Part shown: one piece after another, positions 8,955-34,558 of the stretch
Layout: the number at the start of each line of letters is the position of its first letter
Numbering within the stretch: position 1 is the stretch's first letter
From: Variovorax sp. Root318D1
GTDB lineage: Bacteria > Pseudomonadota > Gammaproteobacteria > Burkholderiales > Burkholderiaceae_C
Reading direction: 5' to 3'
NCBI RefSeq assembly: GCF_001424835.1
Contig: NZ_LMCQ01000019.1
Coordinates: 169,011 to 233,010 of the forward strand
DNA length: 64,000 nt
Made by a program: the position numbers and the translations under genes
Notes under the pieces: generated by a model
Told to the model about the DNA's origin: nothing
Database searches by the model: none
The model's input: the letters and a program-made list of their open reading frames with translations, nothing else

Positions 8955-10919
8955 TTGAGCCGCTCTTTCAATCAACAACTCGATCAGCACGGTGCCTGGC
9001 GAAGCAATTTTGCGCATCGCCTCCAGTGGCTGACCCGCTGGCTGACCGAAAACGAGCTGCTCGACCAGGCCGTGGCCGAGCGCCTGCGCGGCTTGGAGCT
9101 GCAGATCCGCAACAGCAAGGTCATGGTCGCCTTCGTGGCCGAGTTCTCGCGCGGCAAGTCGGAGCTGATCAACGCGATCTTCTTTGCGGGCTACGGGCGG
9201 CGCATCATGCCGGCCAGCGCGGGGCGCACGACGATGTGCCCGACCGAACTGGGCTATGACGCCGCGCAGCCCCCAAAGCTGCGGCTGCTGCCGATCGAAA
9301 CCCGCCTGGAACCCCATTCGCTCACGCACTGGCGCGAGAAGCCCACGCGCTGGACCGACATCGCGATCGACGTGGAGAACGCCGAGCAACTGGCACAGGC
9401 CATGGGCAAGGTGGCCGAGGTGCGCTGGGTCAGCAAGGACGAGGCGCATGCGCTGGGCTTCTGGAACGAAGAGACGCCGGACGACAACCCGGTGCAGGAC
9501 GCCGAAGGCCGCGTCGAGATTCCACGCTGGCGCCATGCCATCCTGAACATGCCGCATCCCTTGCTGGAGCAGGGGCTGGTGATCCTCGACACCCCGGGCC
9601 TGAACGCGATCGGCGCTGAACCCGAACTCACGGTGAGCCTGATCCCACAGGCGCATGCGGTGGTCTTCATCCTGGGCGCGGAGACCGGCGTGACGCGCTC
9701 CGACCTGTCCATCTGGCGCGAGCACCTGGTCACCGAGAGCGAAGGCAGCGACACGCGCTTCGTGGTGCTCAACAAGATCGACACCATGTGGGACTCGCTC
9801 AGCACGCCCGCGCAGATCGAGCTGCAGATCGAGCGCCAGCGTGAAGTGGCGGCCAAGTTTCTCGAGGTTCCGCTCGTGCAGGTGCTGCCGGTATCGGCGC
9901 AAAAGGGCCTGCAGGCCAAGATCCAGCGCGACCCGCGGCTGCTCGAAGCCAGCCGTTTGCCGGCACTGGAAACGCTGCTCGCCGAAGGCGTGCTCGGCAA
10001 GCGCGAAACCATGCTGCGGCTTGCCGTCGATGCAGGCATGGTCGCGCTGCGGGTGGAGGCCGAGCGCATCCTGAAGGTGCGACAGCGCGACCTGTCCGAG
10101 CAGGCGCTGGAGCTGCAGGGCCTGCGCGGCAAGAATATTTCGGTTATTCGCCACATGCGTGGGCGCATCGACCAGGAACAGACCGAGTTCGAGGGCAGCA
10201 ACACGCGCATCCTGGCCCTGCGCTCGGTGCAGGGCAAGCTGCTGCGCGAGGTTTACGCCGTGCTCGGCCGCACGGCCCTCAAGGCCGACATGGTGCGGCT
10301 TTCTGGCGCGCTCAAGCGCCCGGGCATCAAGCTCAACGTGCGCAAGGTGTATGGCGAGACTTTTGACGCGCTGCGCAACAACCTGCGTGAAGTGCAAGCG
10401 ACCACGGCCGAAATCCAGTCGATGCTGCACGCCACATTCCGCCAGCTGAACGCAGAGCAGGGCTTTAACTTGCAAGCACCCGCCGAGCCGGACCTGAGCA
10501 GCTTCGAACAGGAGCTGAGCCAGATCGAACGCAGCCATATTCACTATCTGGGCGTCGGCAATCTGCTGAAGCTGGCGCAAGCGGACTTCTGCGACAAGCT
10601 CGTCCGTGCGCTTGCGAGCCGCCTGCGGCTGGTCAACGAAGCGGCAATGACCGAGGTAGAGCGCTGGAGCAAGGGCGCCAGTGCGCAGATCGATGCTCAA
10701 CTGAAGGAGCGCCGCCGCAACTTCACCAAGCGCATCGAGGCGATCGAGCGCATCCAGAATGCGGCCGGCAACCTCGACGAACGCCTGCTCGAGCTTTCCG
10801 CGCAGGAGAGCAGCCTGGCCGAGTTGCATGTGCGGCTGCAGGAATTCACTTCGATGATCACGCAACAGGGAAGGCCCGCCGCCGCGGCTGCCGCCATCGG
10901 CGAACTGCGTGCGGCCTGA
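8955..10919 (+). CDS. Dynamin-family GTPase
   Basis: 654-residue large GTPase of the bacterial dynamin-like group. G1 P-loop FSRGKSELIN (GKS at 67-69), T92/T93 as the likely G2, G3 DTPG at 212-215 and G4 NKID at 273-276. The region after the GTPase domain (from about 330) is mostly helical with coiled-coil character, as in dynamin stalks. No clear transmembrane segment is visible. Members of this group act on membranes or in stress responses; the substrate membrane here is unknown. The first plausible codon is TTG (TTG AGC CGC TCT). Its last 11 bp overlap mutY, so the two are probably cotranscribed. Confidence 0.88.
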   Translation: MSRSFNQQLDQHGAWRSNFAHRLQWLTRWLTENELLDQAVAERLRGLELQIRNSKVMVAFVAEFSRGKSELINAIFFAGYGRRIMPASAGRTTMCPTELGYDAAQPPKLRLLPIETRLEPHSLTHWREKPTRWTDIAIDVENAEQLAQAMGKVAEVRWVSKDEAHALGFWNEETPDDNPVQDAEGRVEIPRWRHAILNMPHPLLEQGLVILDTPGLNAIGAEPELTVSLIPQAHAVVFILGAETGVTRSDLSIWREHLVTESEGSDTRFVVLNKIDTMWDSLSTPAQIELQIERQREVAAKFLEVPLVQVLPVSAQKGLQAKIQRDPRLLEASRLPALETLLAEGVLGKRETMLRLAVDAGMVALRVEAERILKVRQRDLSEQALELQGLRGKNISVIRHMRGRIDQEQTEFEGSNTRILALRSVQGKLLREVYAVLGRTALKADMVRLSGALKRPGIKLNVRKVYGETFDALRNNLREVQATTAEIQSMLHATFRQLNAEQGFNLQAPAEPDLSSFEQELSQIERSHIHYLGVGNLLKLAQADFCDKLVRALASRLRLVNEAAMTEVERWSKGASAQIDAQLKERRRNFTKRIEAIERIQNAAGNLDERLLELSAQESSLAELHVRLQEFTSMITQQGRPAAAAAAIGELRAA

Positions 10920-27548: not shown

Positions 27549-28497
27549 GACATGCCCCTCTGACGTCGCGTGGTCGGCGGGCGTACAGCCGTGCGCGTGC
27601 GTCCAACCGCCTGGTTGGCCTGTCGGTAACGCCGGATGGCGTTACATGGCATTAACTAAAAAGCGCTACATCTCTGCGCGCTAGATCCGGCCGGTGCACG
27701 CGAACGAGGCCTGCTTCTTCCTGCGCTCCACAGCCACGCCGGGAGGCTGTGGCCCGAGATCGACCTGCGGAAGGCGGCATTCTTTTTCGGCGATGACACG
27801 ACTTGTGCTCCGATGGTCCCTCGGTAAGGTGGCCGAAGGGCGTTGTGTGGTGGCTTTCGCAAACTCCTTGGCAAGGCGCCAGCGACCGCGGATGAGCACT
27901 ATGAATGCAACTGTGCAGATGCTTGTATTGCGCTGTGTCGTGCGTACGGCGCTTGTAAACGCCCGCCTCGTGAATCGCCTTGTGCAGGCGCGGGCGCGAT
28001 CCCTTCGAGACCGCTGCGGAACGGCCCGCTGGCCGCTTTTTTCTTGGCCTCGGCGTTGCCTAAATCCGTCAGAGTCGCACGGGTTGGTTACCGGATATGT
28101 TCGGCTAACCTAGGCCGCGGCTGCCGCTTCCCGATGCCTCGATTTCCGCGCTCCGGCGCTTTTTGCGGACGCGGCTTGGAGAGCTTGCTGGGCAACCCTG
28201 AAACCGGCTGGGTTTGCCTGCCGGACGAGGCCTTTCGTTGTCAACAGCGATAAATCCGACGCCACTGTAGGAAGTTAGCTCGACCGAATGGTCGGTCAGG
28301 ATGTGAAGTCCGCACATCTTGTTGCTCACCGAAGCAGTGGTAATTCGGGTTTAGCCGTACCTTCGTATTGCACTGCAGCATGCGGACGCGGCGGCCCTCG
28401 AGGCGCCGGCAGCTCCGCTGGGTTGCGGGCAAGTTCCCTTTCATTCATGGATGTTGCGCCGATTTCCGGCGCACGCCTTCGCATCAAGAGGTGGGGT
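27549..28497 (+). other. Region of about 950 bp without a convincing gene
   Basis: Both strands have only short open frames with atypical composition (many Cys/Arg/Pro) and no recognisable domain or good ribosome-binding site. It holds a T-tract hairpin at 28022-28042 and a weaker one (GCGC-TCCG-GCGC-TTTTT) at 28148-28164. As the upstream region of the exopolysaccharide locus it probably contains its promoter and possibly a small RNA. A decayed gene is another reading. Confidence 0.5.
28022..28042 (+). terminator. Orphan hairpin with T tract
   Basis: CGGCC-CGCT-GGCCG, one C, then six T residues. It has the form of a plus-strand intrinsic terminator, yet no plus-strand gene ends nearby. It might end a small RNA or attenuate transcription into the exopolysaccharide locus. 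Confidence 0.4.
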
Positions 28498-29799
28498 ATG
28501 CGTGTGTCGAAACTGCCTTCATTTGTTTTTCCCCGCGGCGATCGCCGCACTGGCAGCGCGAGGGCCCGTCGGGTTCCGCGCAGCCCTCATAGAGCCCGGC
28601 AGGGGGGCGCCTTCGTTCCCAAGCTGGCGGCGTATGCGCTGCTGGCCTTCGTGCTGTGGCTGATGGTGGCCACACTCGTCCAGCCGCTGTTGTCTTCGCA
28701 GGCCACGCGAGCGGTGCTGCAGGCGCCTGTTGGCCTGATCACGTCGCCTATCAACGGCGTGGTGTCGCAGATGGTGGTGCATGCGCGCGACACGGTGGAG
28801 CCCGGCACCATCGTGGCTACGGTGCGCAACCCGACCGTGAGCCAAGAGATTCTCACCACGCTGCGCTCGCAGCACCTCGCACTGCAAAGCCAGTTGGCGC
28901 AATTGGGCAACCAGTTCAAGGCCGACAACCAGGAGATGAGGTCGGTCGGACAAGAGGCCACGGTTCACCGCGAGGCGTCCGTGGCGCAAGCCTGGGAGGC
29001 CTGGCAGATTGCGCGGCGGCAGCGCGACGTGGCGCACAGCATGGTCGAAGAGCAGGAGAACAAGGTCAAGACCAACCAGGCCTTGCTCGAACAGGGCGCG
29101 ATCAGCGAGCAAGTGATGAACGCGTCGATGGCGCAGCTGAACACGGCGCGTGCCAATGCGTCGGTGGCGGAACAGGCCTTTGCGGGACAGGCGCAGACCG
29201 TCGCCAGCGCGGGCCAGGGAGCGTTCGTAGGCACCGGGGGCAACAGCCTCTTCCAGACGCTCGCAAGCCGGCGCGAGGTGCTTCGCAACAGCGTGGGCCG
29301 GGCCCAGCAGGACGGCGCCGCCATCCTCCAGCAGCTCAAGCAAGTGATCAAGCTCGAAGAAGAAGAGCGGCAACGGGTCGAGAAGCTGTCCTCTTACGAA
29401 ATCAAGGCCACGCAGTCGGGCCAGGTTCACTCGGTGCTCGCCCCCGAAGGCGCGTACGTCACCGCGGGTGCCTCGCTGGTGCGAGTGACCGACTGCAGCC
29501 GGCTTGGCGTGGTGGCGGTGTTTCCGGCGCGGGTGGCCAAGCGCCTCAGCATCGGCTCGACGCTCGACGTAACCCTCACCGAAAACGGCGCCGCGGTGCC
29601 GGCGCGCGTGGAGCAGTTGCTGCCCGTGGCGTCTGAAGAATTGCAGAGCACCTACAGCGTGCCGTTTCCCTTCGCCGAGCAAGGCTCGATCTACGCGGTG
29701 GCGCGCATCGAGGCCAAGGACGTGTCGTCGGCCGCAACCGCCGCCGGCAACAACCTGTGCGCGCCCGGCAAGGTGGTATCGGCCACCCTTAAATCCTGA
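28498..29799 (+). CDS. HlyD-family periplasmic adaptor of an exopolysaccharide locus
   Basis: 433-residue membrane-fusion (adaptor) protein. A basic cytoplasmic N-terminus of about 40 residues is followed by one transmembrane helix (about 44-66). Then come a beta-barrel/lipoyl half (ITSPINGVVSQMVVHARDTV), a long coiled-coil hairpin (about residues 120-285) and the returning lipoyl half (IKATQSGQVHSVLAPEGAYV). Adaptors of this type bridge an inner-membrane transporter or synthase to a TolC-like outer-membrane channel. The ATG at 28498 has AGAGGTGG just upstream; an ATG 51 bp earlier is in frame but weaker. First gene of a four-function operon. Confidence 0.85.
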   Translation: MRVSKLPSFVFPRGDRRTGSARARRVPRSPHRARQGGAFVPKLAAYALLAFVLWLMVATLVQPLLSSQATRAVLQAPVGLITSPINGVVSQMVVHARDTVEPGTIVATVRNPTVSQEILTTLRSQHLALQSQLAQLGNQFKADNQEMRSVGQEATVHREASVAQAWEAWQIARRQRDVAHSMVEEQENKVKTNQALLEQGAISEQVMNASMAQLNTARANASVAEQAFAGQAQTVASAGQGAFVGTGGNSLFQTLASRREVLRNSVGRAQQDGAAILQQLKQVIKLEEEERQRVEKLSSYEIKATQSGQVHSVLAPEGAYVTAGASLVRVTDCSRLGVVAVFPARVAKRLSIGSTLDVTLTENGAAVPARVEQLLPVASEELQSTYSVPFPFAEQGSIYAVARIEAKDVSSAATAAGNNLCAPGKVVSATLKS

Positions 29800-29828: not shown

Positions 29829-31160
29829 ATGCAGCTCTTCCCGCTCTCCCGGACTCTGGCGCATTGCGCCGTGGCATCGGTGGCCTTGGCGCTGCCGATG
29901 TCCGCGGCCTTGGCCCAGCAGCCTCGGCAGCCCGGCAGCGCCGTGCAGAAAGAACTCGCGCGGCAGAGCTGCGAGGGCCTGCGGCGAGCCGTGACGGAGG
30001 ACCAGAAGGGCGCCGCTTCCGGGCCGCTGTTTCTCGCCAGCTACCGGCTGGCCGACCCGAGGCAAGGCACCCCGCTGGAGCCTGCGTTGGTGGGCGCGGC
30101 CTTCACGTATGACAACGCGCTGGCCGGCATTGCGCTGCTGGCATGCGGCGACACCGCATCGGCCAGGCGCATCGGCGACGCGGTGGTGCGTGCGATGGAA
30201 CGCGACCCGAACACGGCCGACGGGCGTGTGCGCAACGCCTATCGCGCGGGTCCGATGACCGAGGACAAAGCCGCGCTGCCGGGGCGCTGGGACACGGGCA
30301 AGAACCAGTGGATCGCGGACGCCTACCAGGTGAGCACGGCCACGGGCAACGTGGCCTGGGCCGCCTTGCTGCTGCTCAACCTGAACGAGGCCGAACCATC
30401 GCCCGCCTATCTGGCAAATGCACGCAAGCTGCTCGGCTGGATCGAGCAGCGCACGCGCGCCAAGAACGCGCCCGACGGCTACAACGGCGGCTGGTATGGC
30501 TGGGACAACGCGCAGCGCGCGCAGACCTGGAAGTCGACCGAGCACAACATCGACATTGCCATGACGGCCGCATGGGCCGCGCGTGCAGCAGGCGGGCAGG
30601 CCGACGCCGAGCGCCAGCAGGCGCGCACCGCGCTCGAGTTCGTGCGCCGCATGTGGAACCCGTCGGAGCAGCGCTTCTACATCGGCACGAAGGAAGATGG
30701 CGCCACCATCTCCACCGAGAGCTCGGGATTGGATGCGCAGTTGTGGCCTTTGCTCGCTGCGCCCGAAGGCTCATGCGCCTGGACGCGCGGGCTCGATTGG
30801 GTGGAGAAGAACCATCGCTCCGGCGAGGGCTACGGCTTCTCGCGCAATCCCGACGGCATCTGGACCGAGGGCACTGCCCAGGCCGCCGCAACCCTGGTGG
30901 CACGCAAGGGCTCGGCGCCCGACGCCTTGTGGCAACTGCTGGCGTCGCAGCGCGCCGGCAACGGCCTGTACTACGCAACGCCCAGTGCACGCATCTCCAC
31001 CGGCCTGGCCATCGGCCCGGACTCGGCGGGTGCCGACTTCTTCTACTACCGCTGGCCCCACCTCGGCGCCACCGCCTGGATCGCGCTGGCCGCGACGGGC
31101 TTCAACCCCTTTACCGGCAAGACCATTGCCGCAGGAGCTGCTTCACCATGTCCCACCTGA
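29829..31160 (+). CDS. Exported glycosidase-like protein with alpha/alpha-barrel character
   Basis: 443 residues with a signal peptide (cleavage near AALAQQ, about residue 29). The repeated helical pattern and aromatic/acidic motifs (FTYDNALAGIALL, WDTGKNQWIADAY, GYNGGWYGWDN, STEHNIDIAMTAAW, SSGLDAQLWPLL) resemble six-hairpin glycosidases. It probably trims or edits the polymer in the periplasm, as BcsZ or AlgL do in other systems. The exact family and bond are unknown. A good AAGGAA site precedes the ATG. Its last 13 bp overlap the start of the GT2 gene. Confidence 0.78.
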   Translation: MQLFPLSRTLAHCAVASVALALPMSAALAQQPRQPGSAVQKELARQSCEGLRRAVTEDQKGAASGPLFLASYRLADPRQGTPLEPALVGAAFTYDNALAGIALLACGDTASARRIGDAVVRAMERDPNTADGRVRNAYRAGPMTEDKAALPGRWDTGKNQWIADAYQVSTATGNVAWAALLLLNLNEAEPSPAYLANARKLLGWIEQRTRAKNAPDGYNGGWYGWDNAQRAQTWKSTEHNIDIAMTAAWAARAAGGQADAERQQARTALEFVRRMWNPSEQRFYIGTKEDGATISTESSGLDAQLWPLLAAPEGSCAWTRGLDWVEKNHRSGEGYGFSRNPDGIWTEGTAQAAATLVARKGSAPDALWQLLASQRAGNGLYYATPSARISTGLAIGPDSAGADFFYYRWPHLGATAWIALAATGFNPFTGKTIAAGAASPCPT

Positions 31161-34100
31161 TTGCCACACCGGAGTTCCAGCTCAACGCACTCGTTGCGGG
31201 GCTCGCACTTCTTCTGATGACATGGGGGCGGGTCCAGCGCGCCTCCCATCGCATGCTGTTCGGCGGGCTCACGGCGCTGCTGTTGATGCGATATGCGATA
31301 TGGCGCGTGGTCGCCACCATGCCGCCTTCGGACCTGGGCTTTGAAACCTTGTTTGCGTGGGTTTTCCTCGCTTTCGAGCTCACGGCCATCGTCTACACGC
31401 TGATGTCCATTCACATGCTGGTGCGGCGGCGCGACAACCATGCCCTGGCCGACCGCGGTGAAGCCGAGCTGCGGCGCCTTGGTGCCAAGGTGCCGGCGGT
31501 GGACGTCTTCATCTGCACCTACAACGAAGAGCTGGCCGTGCTGGAAAAAACCATCATCGCCGCACAGGCCATCGACTACCCGCAGGTGAAGGTCTGGGTG
31601 CTCGACGACACCCGTCGCGACTGGCTGCGCGACTATTGCGAGCGCAAGGGCGTGCACTACGCGCGGCGGCCCGACAACAGCCACGCCAAGGCCGGCAATC
31701 TCAACAACGGGCTGAGTATTTCAGCGGGCGTGACCAATGCGCCGTACATCCTGGTGCTCGATGCCGACTTTGCGCCGCAGCGGCAAATCATCTATCGCAT
31801 GCTGGGCCTGTTTGCGGACCGCAAGGTGGGGCTGGTGCAGACGCCGCAGTTCTATTACAACGCCGACCCCATCCAGCACAACCTGCGCGCCACCGACAGC
31901 TGGGTCGACGAGCAGCGCGTGTTCTTCGACGTGCTGCAGCCCGCCAAGGATGCGGTGGACTCTGCCTTCTGCGTGGGCACCTCGTTCATCGTGCGGCGCG
32001 ACCTGATCACCGCCGCGGGCGGCTTTCCGGTGGGCAGCGTGTGCGAAGACATCCACACCACCTACCTGCTGCTGCGCCATGGCCACGTCACGCGCTGGCT
32101 GGGCGAGCGGCTGTCGAACGGCTTGTCGGCCGAGAGCATCATCGACTACATCAACCAGCGCAGCCGCTGGTGCCTGGGCACGGTGCAGCTCGCGCTCCTG
32201 CCCCAGGGGCCGCTGCGCGGCAAGGGCTACAGCCTCTCGGCGCGGATGCACTTCTTGCACGGCCTGCTGCATTGGCTCGGCAAGCCTTTCATGGCGCTGA
32301 TCATGCTGGCGCCGGCGCTGTACTGGTATGCGGGCGTCTCGGTCTTCCATGCCTCGCCGCAGGCCTTCGCCGCCTACGGTTTGCCCCCGCTCGTGATGTT
32401 CTGGGCCTACAGCTACTGGATCAGCGAGCGGCGCTGTCTGCCCGTGTTCAGCGAGGTGAGCCAACTGGTGGCAGCCATGGCCGTCACCAGTACGCTCGCA
32501 AGCGCCATGCTGCGGCCCTTCGGCCGGCCATTCAAGGTGACGAACAAGGGGCTCGACCGCTCGAAGACGGTCGTGCACTGGAAGCTGGTCGCGATGTTCG
32601 GCGGGCTTCTTGTCGCGCTGCAGCTCGGCGGCGCGTCGGTGGCCTTGAGCGGCGAGGCGCTCACGCCCGGCGATGAGCTCAATCTCGTGTGGACCGGCAT
32701 CGCGCTGCTGCTGTGCCTGGCCGCGCTCATGGCCTGTGTCGACTTGCCGCGCCCGGAACAGGAAGAGCGCTTTCCCTGGCGCGCTCGCACACGGGTGCGC
32801 ACCGCGGCGGGCGAAGGCGATGCCCGCTTCGTCAACATCGCGGCGGACGGCGCGCTGGTGGAAGCCAAAGCGCCGCTGAAGCGACTGCGCGTGGGGCAGC
32901 CGCTTGAGGTGTATGTCGATACCGTGGGCTGGCTACCGGCGCGCCTTGCGCGCAAAAGTTCCGCGGGCGCCGAGCTGCGCTTCGACGCCACCTCCGAGGC
33001 TCAGCGCGAACAATTGGTGAGCCACGTGTTCACTGTGCCGCCGAGCCACGTCGCCGTCCAGGTGCGGCCATGGCGAGCCGCTTCGGCATTGCTCGAGAGC
33101 GCGGGGTTCGGCGCGCCCGGAGCGGGCTTCATGCGCCTCTTTCTGCGGCTGTTCCTGCTGGTGATCGCGACCTGCGTGGTGCTGGTGGTGAGCGGATGCA
33201 ATCTGACGCCGCCGATGAAGCAGCCCGACCTCGCCGTGCCCACGCAATGGCCGGCCGGCACCACGGCGCCAAGCGCCGAGCCGGTGGACTGGCGCAGTTT
33301 CGTGCAGGACGAAGAACTGCGCGGGCTGATTGACACCGCTCTCAAGCAGAACCGCGACCTGCGCGTCTACGCTGCGAAGGCACGCGAGGCGCGGGCCGTG
33401 TATGCCGGAACTCGCGCTTCGCTGTTCCCGCAGATCGGCCTTTCGGGCCACGCTCAGCGCGCGCAGACCACGCCGCAGGGCTCGCTCAGCCCGATTGGCA
33501 ACGTACCGACCAACGGGGGCGTGTCCAACAGCTTCGATGTGCAGGCCGGCGTGACTTCGTACGAGCTCGACTTCTTCGGCCGCCAGCAGAGCACGGCGCA
33601 GCAAGGCGGCGCCTTGGCCGAAGCAGGCGACAAGGACTACGCAGCCGCGCGCATGAACCTGGTGGGCGAGGTGTCGAATGCATACCTCACGCTGCGCGCC
33701 GACCGCGCATTGCTCGCCTTGGCGAATGCCAACGAAAGCGGGCTCTCTTCCAATGCCGACATGATCGGCCGCGCCAAGGCGGCCGGCGGCGCTGCGCAGC
33801 TCGATGTCTATCGTGCGCAATCGCTGTTGCAGAACGCGCGTGTGCGGCAAGAGGAATACCGCATGCGTGTGGCGCAGGATCTTCAGTGGTTGAACGTGCT
33901 GGTCGGTCAGCCGGTGCCGCCCGAGACAGGCAGCACACGGCCCTGGCCAGAGCGCTCGACGGCTCCGGTGACGGCGGGCCTGCCGTCCAGCCTGCTGCAA
34001 CGCCGACCCGACTTGCTGGCCGCCTATGCGCGGGTCGAGGCCGCCAATTCGGGTGTGGGTGCGGCCAAGGCCGCGATGCTGCCGACCATCTCGCTCACGG

Positions 34101-34558
34101 CCCTGGCAGGCGGCATCAGCGGGGACTTGTCTTCGCTGCTCAGCAGCGGCAACAGGAGCTGGGCGGGTGTACTCGGTGTGTCGCTGCCCCTGTTCGACTG
34201 GGGGCGCCGCTCGGCCAACATCACCGCCAACGAAGAGCGGCTTGCGGCCGCCATGTCGTCGTATGAATACGCGGCGCAAGTGGCCTTCCGGGAAACCGCC
34301 AATGCGTTGATTGCCGACGACCACCTGCGTCCGCAGTTGGAGGCGCAGCAGACCCGTGTGCAGTCGCTGGAAAAAGTGGCCAGCATTTCACGGACGCGCT
34401 TTCGCGGCGGCCTGGAAGACTACTTCTCGAGCCAGGATGCCCAGCGCGAACTCTATGCGGAGCAACAGCAGCTGATCGAACTGCAGCTCAAGCAGGCCGT
34501 GAACCTGGTCAACCTGTACAAGGCGCTCGGAGGCGGATGGAGCAGCGCGCAGGGTTGA
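31148..34558 (+). CDS. Cellulose-synthase-like GT2/PilZ protein in one frame with a NodT-type outer-membrane factor
   Basis: One uninterrupted frame of 1136 codons. Residues 1-661 form a BcsA-like processive glycosyltransferase. N-terminal membrane helices are followed by the GT-A motifs D119, D153/D154, DAD at 205-207, the CEDIHTT segment at 299-305 and QRSRW at 337-341. More helices and the gating-loop motif FKVTNKG (462-468) follow. The PilZ-like domain has RxxxR at 545-549, but NIAADG (563-568) in place of NxSxxG. Residues 662-1136 form a full-length NodT/OprM-type outer-membrane factor. It begins with its own signal peptide and lipobox VSGC (C684). Either a true fusion, a precursor cut at the lipobox, or two proteins through an internal start. 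Confidence 0.85.
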   Translation: MSHLIATPEFQLNALVAGLALLLMTWGRVQRASHRMLFGGLTALLLMRYAIWRVVATMPPSDLGFETLFAWVFLAFELTAIVYTLMSIHMLVRRRDNHALADRGEAELRRLGAKVPAVDVFICTYNEELAVLEKTIIAAQAIDYPQVKVWVLDDTRRDWLRDYCERKGVHYARRPDNSHAKAGNLNNGLSISAGVTNAPYILVLDADFAPQRQIIYRMLGLFADRKVGLVQTPQFYYNADPIQHNLRATDSWVDEQRVFFDVLQPAKDAVDSAFCVGTSFIVRRDLITAAGGFPVGSVCEDIHTTYLLLRHGHVTRWLGERLSNGLSAESIIDYINQRSRWCLGTVQLALLPQGPLRGKGYSLSARMHFLHGLLHWLGKPFMALIMLAPALYWYAGVSVFHASPQAFAAYGLPPLVMFWAYSYWISERRCLPVFSEVSQLVAAMAVTSTLASAMLRPFGRPFKVTNKGLDRSKTVVHWKLVAMFGGLLVALQLGGASVALSGEALTPGDELNLVWTGIALLLCLAALMACVDLPRPEQEERFPWRARTRVRTAAGEGDARFVNIAADGALVEAKAPLKRLRVGQPLEVYVDTVGWLPARLARKSSAGAELRFDATSEAQREQLVSHVFTVPPSHVAVQVRPWRAASALLESAGFGAPGAGFMRLFLRLFLLVIATCVVLVVSGCNLTPPMKQPDLAVPTQWPAGTTAPSAEPVDWRSFVQDEELRGLIDTALKQNRDLRVYAAKAREARAVYAGTRASLFPQIGLSGHAQRAQTTPQGSLSPIGNVPTNGGVSNSFDVQAGVTSYELDFFGRQQSTAQQGGALAEAGDKDYAAARMNLVGEVSNAYLTLRADRALLALANANESGLSSNADMIGRAKAAGGAAQLDVYRAQSLLQNARVRQEEYRMRVAQDLQWLNVLVGQPVPPETGSTRPWPERSTAPVTAGLPSSLLQRRPDLLAAYARVEAANSGVGAAKAAMLPTISLTALAGGISGDLSSLLSSGNRSWAGVLGVSLPLFDWGRRSANITANEERLAAAMSSYEYAAQVAFRETANALIADDHLRPQLEAQQTRVQSLEKVASISRTRFRGGLEDYFSSQDAQRELYAEQQQLIELQLKQAVNLVNLYKALGGGWSSAQG
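33131..34558 (+). CDS. Outer-membrane factor lipoprotein (NodT/OprM type), alternative internal start
   Basis: Within the preceding frame, the ATG at 33131 has GGAG 8 nt upstream and opens a textbook lipoprotein signal: MRLFLR, a hydrophobic core and VSGC with the lipidated Cys at residue 23. The 475-residue product has the duplicated TolC-like architecture: helical hairpins (LIDTALKQNRDLRVYAAKAR; LLQRRPDLLAAYARVEAANS) and beta strands (FDVQAGVTSYELDFFGR; GVLGVSLPLFDWGRR). It would form the outer-membrane exit duct. Listed separately because both translation modes are plausible. Confidence 0.6.
   Translation: MRLFLRLFLLVIATCVVLVVSGCNLTPPMKQPDLAVPTQWPAGTTAPSAEPVDWRSFVQDEELRGLIDTALKQNRDLRVYAAKAREARAVYAGTRASLFPQIGLSGHAQRAQTTPQGSLSPIGNVPTNGGVSNSFDVQAGVTSYELDFFGRQQSTAQQGGALAEAGDKDYAAARMNLVGEVSNAYLTLRADRALLALANANESGLSSNADMIGRAKAAGGAAQLDVYRAQSLLQNARVRQEEYRMRVAQDLQWLNVLVGQPVPPETGSTRPWPERSTAPVTAGLPSSLLQRRPDLLAAYARVEAANSGVGAAKAAMLPTISLTALAGGISGDLSSLLSSGNRSWAGVLGVSLPLFDWGRRSANITANEERLAAAMSSYEYAAQVAFRETANALIADDHLRPQLEAQQTRVQSLEKVASISRTRFRGGLEDYFSSQDAQRELYAEQQQLIELQLKQAVNLVNLYKALGGGWSSAQG

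Follow-up and report, generated by a model that had tools for sequence, protein, structure and literature searches.

By what route do polymers made by glycosyltransferase family 2 (GT2) enzymes pass the outer membrane where BcsC is lacking? A locus of Variovorax sp. Root318D1 bears on this question, because a probable polysaccharide synthase and an outer-membrane duct are encoded there as one protein. In the window (the whole analysed stretch of 64,000 nucleotides of contig NZ_LMCQ01000019.1, from a genome of 5.7 Mb) a GT2 synthase with a PilZ domain runs without a stop codon into an outer-membrane factor (OMF) of the NodT/OprM type. We consider it quite probable that this fused gene encodes a precursor, which would be matured into two envelope proteins by a cut at an internal lipoprotein signal peptide. 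With somewhat less assurance we lean towards a wider reading, in which maturation of a polyprotein by LspA would yield a polysaccharide synthase of the inner membrane and, in equal amounts, the duct of the outer membrane that serves it, and in which three fusions would count as evidence for a HlyD-OMF (type I secretion-like) conduit instead of BcsB/BcsC.

Translation of 31148-34558 gives 1136 residues with a sole stop at the very end, as the original prediction had read it, and the duct part is complete: the model TIGR01845 (NodT outer-membrane subunit) matches residues 678-1130 over positions 4-460 of its 460 (299 bits against a curated cut-off of 210.05; E 5.9e-89). Domain searches placed the GT2 match at residues 116-342 (31493-32173) and PilZ (PF07238) at residues 538-628 (32759-33031; E 3.2e-08). 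The lipobox before the mature duct, VSGC at residues 681-684, is internal to the fused chain, and a GGAG (33119-33122) lies 8 nucleotides upstream of the ATG at 33131, the codon of residue 662, which sits about where the old start codon of the duct gene would be; both signals were found where they had been predicted. The nine other matches to this protein in the genome cover the duct half only (residues 625 or later), in frames of 491-752 residues. The start at 30143, from which the open reading frame was listed, was rejected as an upstream extension of the fused frame; the matches of relatives agree with a start at 31148, which overlaps the end (31160) of the preceding gene by 13 nucleotides. 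In a scan for promoters and terminators no signal stood above shuffles.

The original prediction had proposed aligning orthologous loci to see whether the stop is missing in several strains. In a sample of 100 Variovorax genomes from a larger group, at least 33 gave a match through the junction without a stop (32 spanning most or all of the query), and the missing stop is thus not peculiar to this assembly. No stop at the junction was seen among the matches listed in these genomes, in which two clades could be distinguished, A (84-100% identity) and B (about 68-70%); one genome (G050) carries the versions of both, and in another (G070) the match is limited to residues 874-1134. In-frame stops in four genomes (G037, G047, G048 and G063) were considered as breaks of the junction and rejected, each lying at the extreme C-terminus. 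A frame break near residue 800, with the junction intact, was observed in G025 (contig C2:530990-534389) and may be an error or early decay.

Outside Variovorax the two parts are mostly encoded separately. In a set of 109 loci, in which the named relatives are the best 80 of 220 and some strains are counted twice (as genome and as named contig), 108 could be classified, the remaining one (L104) ending within the duct: 49 rows were fused (47 Variovorax and 2 Pseudomonas) and 59 separate. All 47 classified Variovorax rows are fused, and the separate rows come from Pseudomonas, Frateuria, Dyella, Rhodanobacter, Cupriavidus, Burkholderia, Pandoraea and Ralstonia, with some unassigned; in those genera the four genes follow each other in the same order (HlyD adaptor, hydrolase-like protein, GT2 and OMF), with GT2 and OMF adjoining and separate. 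Surveys at a strict E-value gave matches in 4 of 399 genomes of the family (two Variovorax, and L119 and L120 at 36-37%, for which no duct was found in the available flanks), in 3 of 399 of the order (two Variovorax, and G1467 at 55% with a TGA inside) and in 1 of 369 of the class (the window's own), indicating that the cluster is patchy. The sole relative on viral contigs, at 37%, matches the GT part. Within Pseudomonas 14 of 298 genomes contain a strong match, 1 fused and 13 separate; the long frames (1203-1278 residues) of Pseudomonas loci L127, L129 and L132 were considered as further fusions and rejected, a TAG standing between the genes.

How often did the fusion arise? We built a quick maximum-likelihood tree from 91 distinct GT2 sequences, 33 of them fused and 58 separate. 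On it the fused label has to change three times, and branches with good support make all three changes necessary. One falls on the old branch to 31 Variovorax sequences (support 100), and the two others lead to Pseudomonas sp. 14P_8.1_Bac3 (L057) and P. putida 700447 (L058). Three gains are the simpler reading because the junctions of the two Pseudomonas fusions differ, and apparently the fusion arose three times, as far as can be judged from the sequences. It would stem from loss of the stop between two adjoining genes. Compared with its near relatives, L057 has an in-frame deletion of 75 nucleotides, which runs from the last part of the synthase gene through its stop to the duct gene's start and takes the bases before that start with it; L058 lacks a different, larger stretch, by a looser alignment with more distant relatives. 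The lipobox is kept in both, and omega in both halves of L057 is 0.026-0.039 against its near relatives, like that of separate-gene pairs. In the Variovorax clade no reversal was seen among the 31 distinct fused sequences, down to about 68-70% identity. The junctions of L057 (near 9890-10160) and L058 (near 9860-10075) are apparently recent, and with their separate-gene relatives the two loci form natural before-and-after pairs.

A chain that depends on cutting and lipidation is expected to retain its lipobox, and this is what we observed: all 29 sequences (23 of clade A and 6 of clade B) have Cys684 and Gly683, amid a signal peptide that evolves fast (omega 0.49 in clade A and 0.96 in clade B), and a lipobox pattern is found at the junction of all 33 distinct fused proteins. 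The second cysteine of the signal peptide, at 676, occurs in 20 of 23 clade-A sequences and in none of the 6 of clade B. In the 32 fused rows that were measured, the residue at +2 after the Cys is Asn or Ser and the 12 positions before it are free of K, R, D, E, H, N and Q; the 23 positions upstream of those 12 hold 2-8 Lys/Arg. Both halves of the protein are under purifying selection, the clade-A omega being 0.13-0.16 for GT core, PilZ and duct. Omega is also low at residues 631-661 (0.098 in clade A, 0.255 in clade B), which by itself is expected because this stretch is partly ordinary synthase tail. LspA is encoded in the genome.

On the basis of these features we propose that the ribosome would make one chain, the first half of which would be a beta-glucan-type GT2 synthase in the inner membrane with its PilZ domain in the cytoplasm. 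The hydrophobic stretch 662-683, with its positive end inside, would then act as an internal lipoprotein signal peptide, Lgt would lipidate Cys684 and LspA would cut just before it. Once transported to the outer membrane, the freed lipoprotein would be a trimeric duct like OprM and would form, together with the HlyD adaptor of the cluster and the synthase, a conduit for the polymer, while the hydrolase-like protein would trim chains in the periplasm.

Several observations weigh against this proposal. The regular expression used for the lipobox also matches at residue 530, in a membrane helix of the same protein, so that the pattern alone is weak. The structural model of the whole fused protein (predicted local distance difference test, pLDDT, 75.7; predicted template modelling score, pTM, 0.55) is weak at the junction, and was kept out of arguments on geometry for this reason. 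The tree tool warns that the three changes may in principle include losses, and for L057 and L058 the low omega values may largely predate the fusion. Other points concern the possibility that two products are made, ribosomes also starting at the ATG at 33131 behind the GGAG and so producing a duct that carries its own signal peptide, and the fusion being mere read-through between adjoining genes. The energy of this site in the window is -6.2 kcal/mol by a simple scan. Codon 662 is ATG in the window and five near relatives and ATG or GTG in 19 of 23 clade-A sequences, the scan energy before it being at or below -3 kcal/mol in 13 of these 19 and at or below -6.0 in 9; the place is also right, as the candidate starts of the separate duct genes mostly lie 16-31 residues before the Cys. 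The starts of separate duct genes show such scan energies too, which makes internal initiation possible in strains with ATG or GTG, and in clade B several in-frame Met codons occur near the junction, except in L033. However, a start from which the duct was translated ought to be conserved, and this one varies: codon 662 in the 23 clade-A sequences is ATG in 6, GTG in 13, GTA in 1 and GCG in 3, and a truncated sequence (L031) likewise has no listed start there. The scan energy ranges from -1.5 to -7.0 kcal/mol among the clade-A sequences with ATG or GTG, and the codon that supplies the GGAG is GGA in 8 of 23 and GGC in 11 of 23. Before the Cys L033 offers only a GTG at 48, an ATG at 41 and a GTG at 9 residues; the original start lies within the deleted stretch in L057 and, by the looser alignment, in L058; and where a genome is rich in GC, GTG is presumably also frequent as a Val codon. 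Synonymous variation is not lowered at residues 631-661: in clade A pS is 0.451 there, 0.281 for the GT core and 0.382 for the OMF. This test is coarse, as a ribosome site comprises few bases. Initiation inside the frame thus seems unlikely to us as the source of the duct.

A still smaller chance is given to an uncut trans-envelope protein, in which the signal helix would stay in the inner membrane and tether the duct to the synthase. The continuous frame and a helix predicted at residues 660-682 would fit such a protein, but the lipobox Cys is invariant and a protein that spans the envelope should have a longer spacer. Counted from the Cys, the first conserved duct motif lies at 31 residues in all 30 measured Variovorax rows and at 36 in both Pseudomonas fusions, compared with 36 in 25 of 46 rows of separate OMFs (range 35-52), the motif pattern having missed 13 rows, one of them fused (L037). 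The spacer is therefore not lengthened in the fused rows, and no added length bridges the periplasm. That the locus reflects an error of assembly or sequencing, or a gene in decay, for which the frame break in G025 could be taken as a sign, has practically no probability: the same junction occurs in many separately assembled genomes, several of which comprise one or two contigs, and this explanation is refuted by the relatives and by the clade-A omega values of GT core, PilZ and duct. Finally, the chain could be cut as proposed and the fusion itself be functionless, a stop having been lost once in Variovorax and the loss tolerated as the signal peptide still works. We regard this as conceivable, if less than probable; fused and separate states differ by small changes, and in Pseudomonas the fusions turn up singly among relatives with separate genes (1 of 14 matching genomes, plus L058), but in Variovorax the fused state has persisted over the clade of 31 distinct sequences. 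Three options had been left standing in the original prediction, and of these the cut polyprotein is favoured, internal initiation being weakened by the variable start and the deletion in L057, and the uncut form by the invariant Cys and the spacer.

Precursors of a comparable kind are known. FbcH, the cytochrome b/c1 precursor of Bradyrhizobium, is a multi-spanning membrane protein fused to a partner and cut at an internal signal peptide; its product stays at the inner membrane, whereas the Variovorax protein has a lipoprotein signal and a predicted outer-membrane product. In AcsAB, or fused BcsAB, of Gluconacetobacter (Novacetimonas) hansenii and Komagataeibacter, synthase and export partner form one polypeptide, and AcsAB is reported to be proteolytically processed into separate proteins (PMC4877109, PMC9318390). 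The Variovorax protein resembles AcsAB in that a GT2/PilZ synthase is encoded fused to its export partner, and it resembles both precursors in being one frame with a conserved internal signal peptide. The partner is BcsB in AcsAB, and in Variovorax a TolC-like outer-membrane lipoprotein duct with a predicted cut by lipoprotein signal peptidase. Another related system is XcsAB-TolC, a proposed cyanobacterial cellulose exporter consisting of a GT2 with PilZ, a HlyD-like adaptor, an endoglucanase and a TolC-like duct, which a review presents as a model without experimental validation and with synthase, adaptor and duct not in one operon (PMC12430437). The Variovorax cluster shares with it the GT2 with PilZ, the HlyD-like adaptor and the duct, and its hydrolase-like protein has a predicted (alpha/alpha)6 fold common to glycosidases and epimerases; unlike XcsAB-TolC it has all four genes adjoining, and synthase and duct fused. 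The XcsAB-TolC model reportedly goes back to Maeda et al. 2018. The earlier statement that no described example of this combination was known agrees with term searches of open-licence papers, which returned no description of the synthase-duct fusion; to it are to be added a fused and processed synthase of the same superfamily (AcsAB) and the synthase/HlyD/TolC-like system proposed for cyanobacterial cellulose, both of them published. What appears to be new, as judged from those searches, is that a synthase is joined to a duct of the outer membrane and that the predicted cut lies at a lipoprotein signal.

The synthase and the duct are encoded in one operon-like cluster with an adaptor and were apparently fused three times, and are therefore functionally tied; the fusion suggests that the two work together. 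The locus is thus a genetically simple test case for polymer export without BcsC. If the cut were confirmed, Lgt and LspA would act on a signal peptide behind a large multi-spanning protein, and the fusion would be a natural means of fixing the ratio of synthase to duct.

Which polymer would pass through this conduit? Among solved structures the synthase half is nearest to BcsA (E 1.1e-55), and it has the motifs of processive GT2 enzymes (DDT at 153, DAD at 205, CED at 299, QRSRW at 337 and FKVTNK); the cellulose synthase model TIGR03030 (CelA) scores 350.8 bits, below its cut-off of 699.1. No match to BcsB (PF03170) was found in the genome of the window, and 2 of 14 control genomes contain one. 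Homologues of the synthase occur on rhizobial and Nitrobacter plasmids, with up to about 47% identity, for instance on pSymB of S. meliloti 1021 (40% identity over residues 24-475), a match which we take to be bgsA. The plasmid clusters of Agrobacterium (L144) and Nitrobacter (L145) contain a HlyD-like gene, annotated as a multidrug transporter in L144, a hydrolase-like gene and a GT2; no duct was found in their 6-kilobase flanks, either in the gene tables or by tblastn with the duct half. BgsBA of Rhizobium/Sinorhizobium makes the mixed-linkage (1,3;1,4)-beta-glucan, with a GT2 of CESA_CelA_like core next to a HlyD-like protein and, in the descriptions drawn on here, without a PilZ domain in BgsA (PMC9495663, PMC5567048), and an FxVTxK gating loop is marked in both BcsA and BgsA in one of them (PMC5567048). 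The Variovorax synthase shares the CESA_CelA_like core, the FxVTxK loop and a HlyD-like partner gene with BgsBA and differs from BgsA in its PilZ domain and the fused duct. Because of the BcsA-like GT2, the FxVTxK loop, the lack of a BcsB match and the (alpha/alpha)6 hydrolase-like neighbour, the product is most likely a beta-glucan-type polymer, which would be exported via adaptor and duct.

We also found a difference in the PilZ motif. DxSxxG is present in 58 of 58 separate rows and in both Pseudomonas fusions, and the 31 Variovorax rows have N-x-A (24, clade A) or E/Q-x-A (6, clade B), the remaining row (FMEIAG) being misread by the PilZ pattern. The motif is given in the literature as (D/N)x(S/A)xxG (PMC5567048). 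Loss of binding of cyclic dimeric guanosine monophosphate (c-di-GMP) in Variovorax was considered and dropped, as clade A still fits this form; the E or Q of clade B does not fit it. To judge from the motif, the old fused lineage may be controlled differently by c-di-GMP.

Table 1. Coordinates of the fused gene, its parts and the neighbouring genes in the window
Feature	Position	Strand	Remark
Fused gene	31148..34558	+	One frame, 1136 codons plus stop; from translation
Synthase half	31148..33130	+	Residues 1-661, membrane GT2 then PilZ
Synthase tail and junction	33038..33130	+	Residues 631-661, purifying selection
Candidate internal start (GGAG and ATG)	33119..33133	+	Not kept in every relative
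Internal signal peptide	33131..33196	+	Residues 662-683
Lipobox Cys codon (Cys684)	33197..33199	+	Predicted Lgt/LspA site
Duct half	33197..34555	+	Mature NodT/OprM-type OMF, residues 684-1136
HlyD-type periplasmic adaptor (membrane fusion protein)	28498..29799	+	Pfam HlyD_3, E 3.5e-11
Exported hydrolase-like protein, predicted (alpha/alpha)6 toroid	29829..31160	+	AlphaFold2 pLDDT 87.7

Both upstream genes accompany the synthase closely. All 79 named loci have the hydrolase-like gene upstream of it, and 77 have the adaptor gene there as well; L104 and L113, the other two, do not extend far enough. The frame of the adaptor was listed from 28288, yet similarity in several relatives begins near frame residue 64-71, and an ATG preceded by AGGTGG is present at 28498; these features point to a start at 28498 rather than at 28288.

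The model of the hydrolase-like protein aligns with glycosidases and sugar epimerases at a VIA-align Z of about 30. The window's own sequence has no Pfam family match, and among 31 members of the family only some have Pfam matches (best E 0.00029, GH127, 8 members); comparison of the family with the sequences of the PDB gave nothing better than E 0.12. In view of the predicted fold, this family tied to GT2 exporters is a candidate new glycoside hydrolase family. It is conserved and exported, with a mean column identity of 59% in an alignment of 31 rows.

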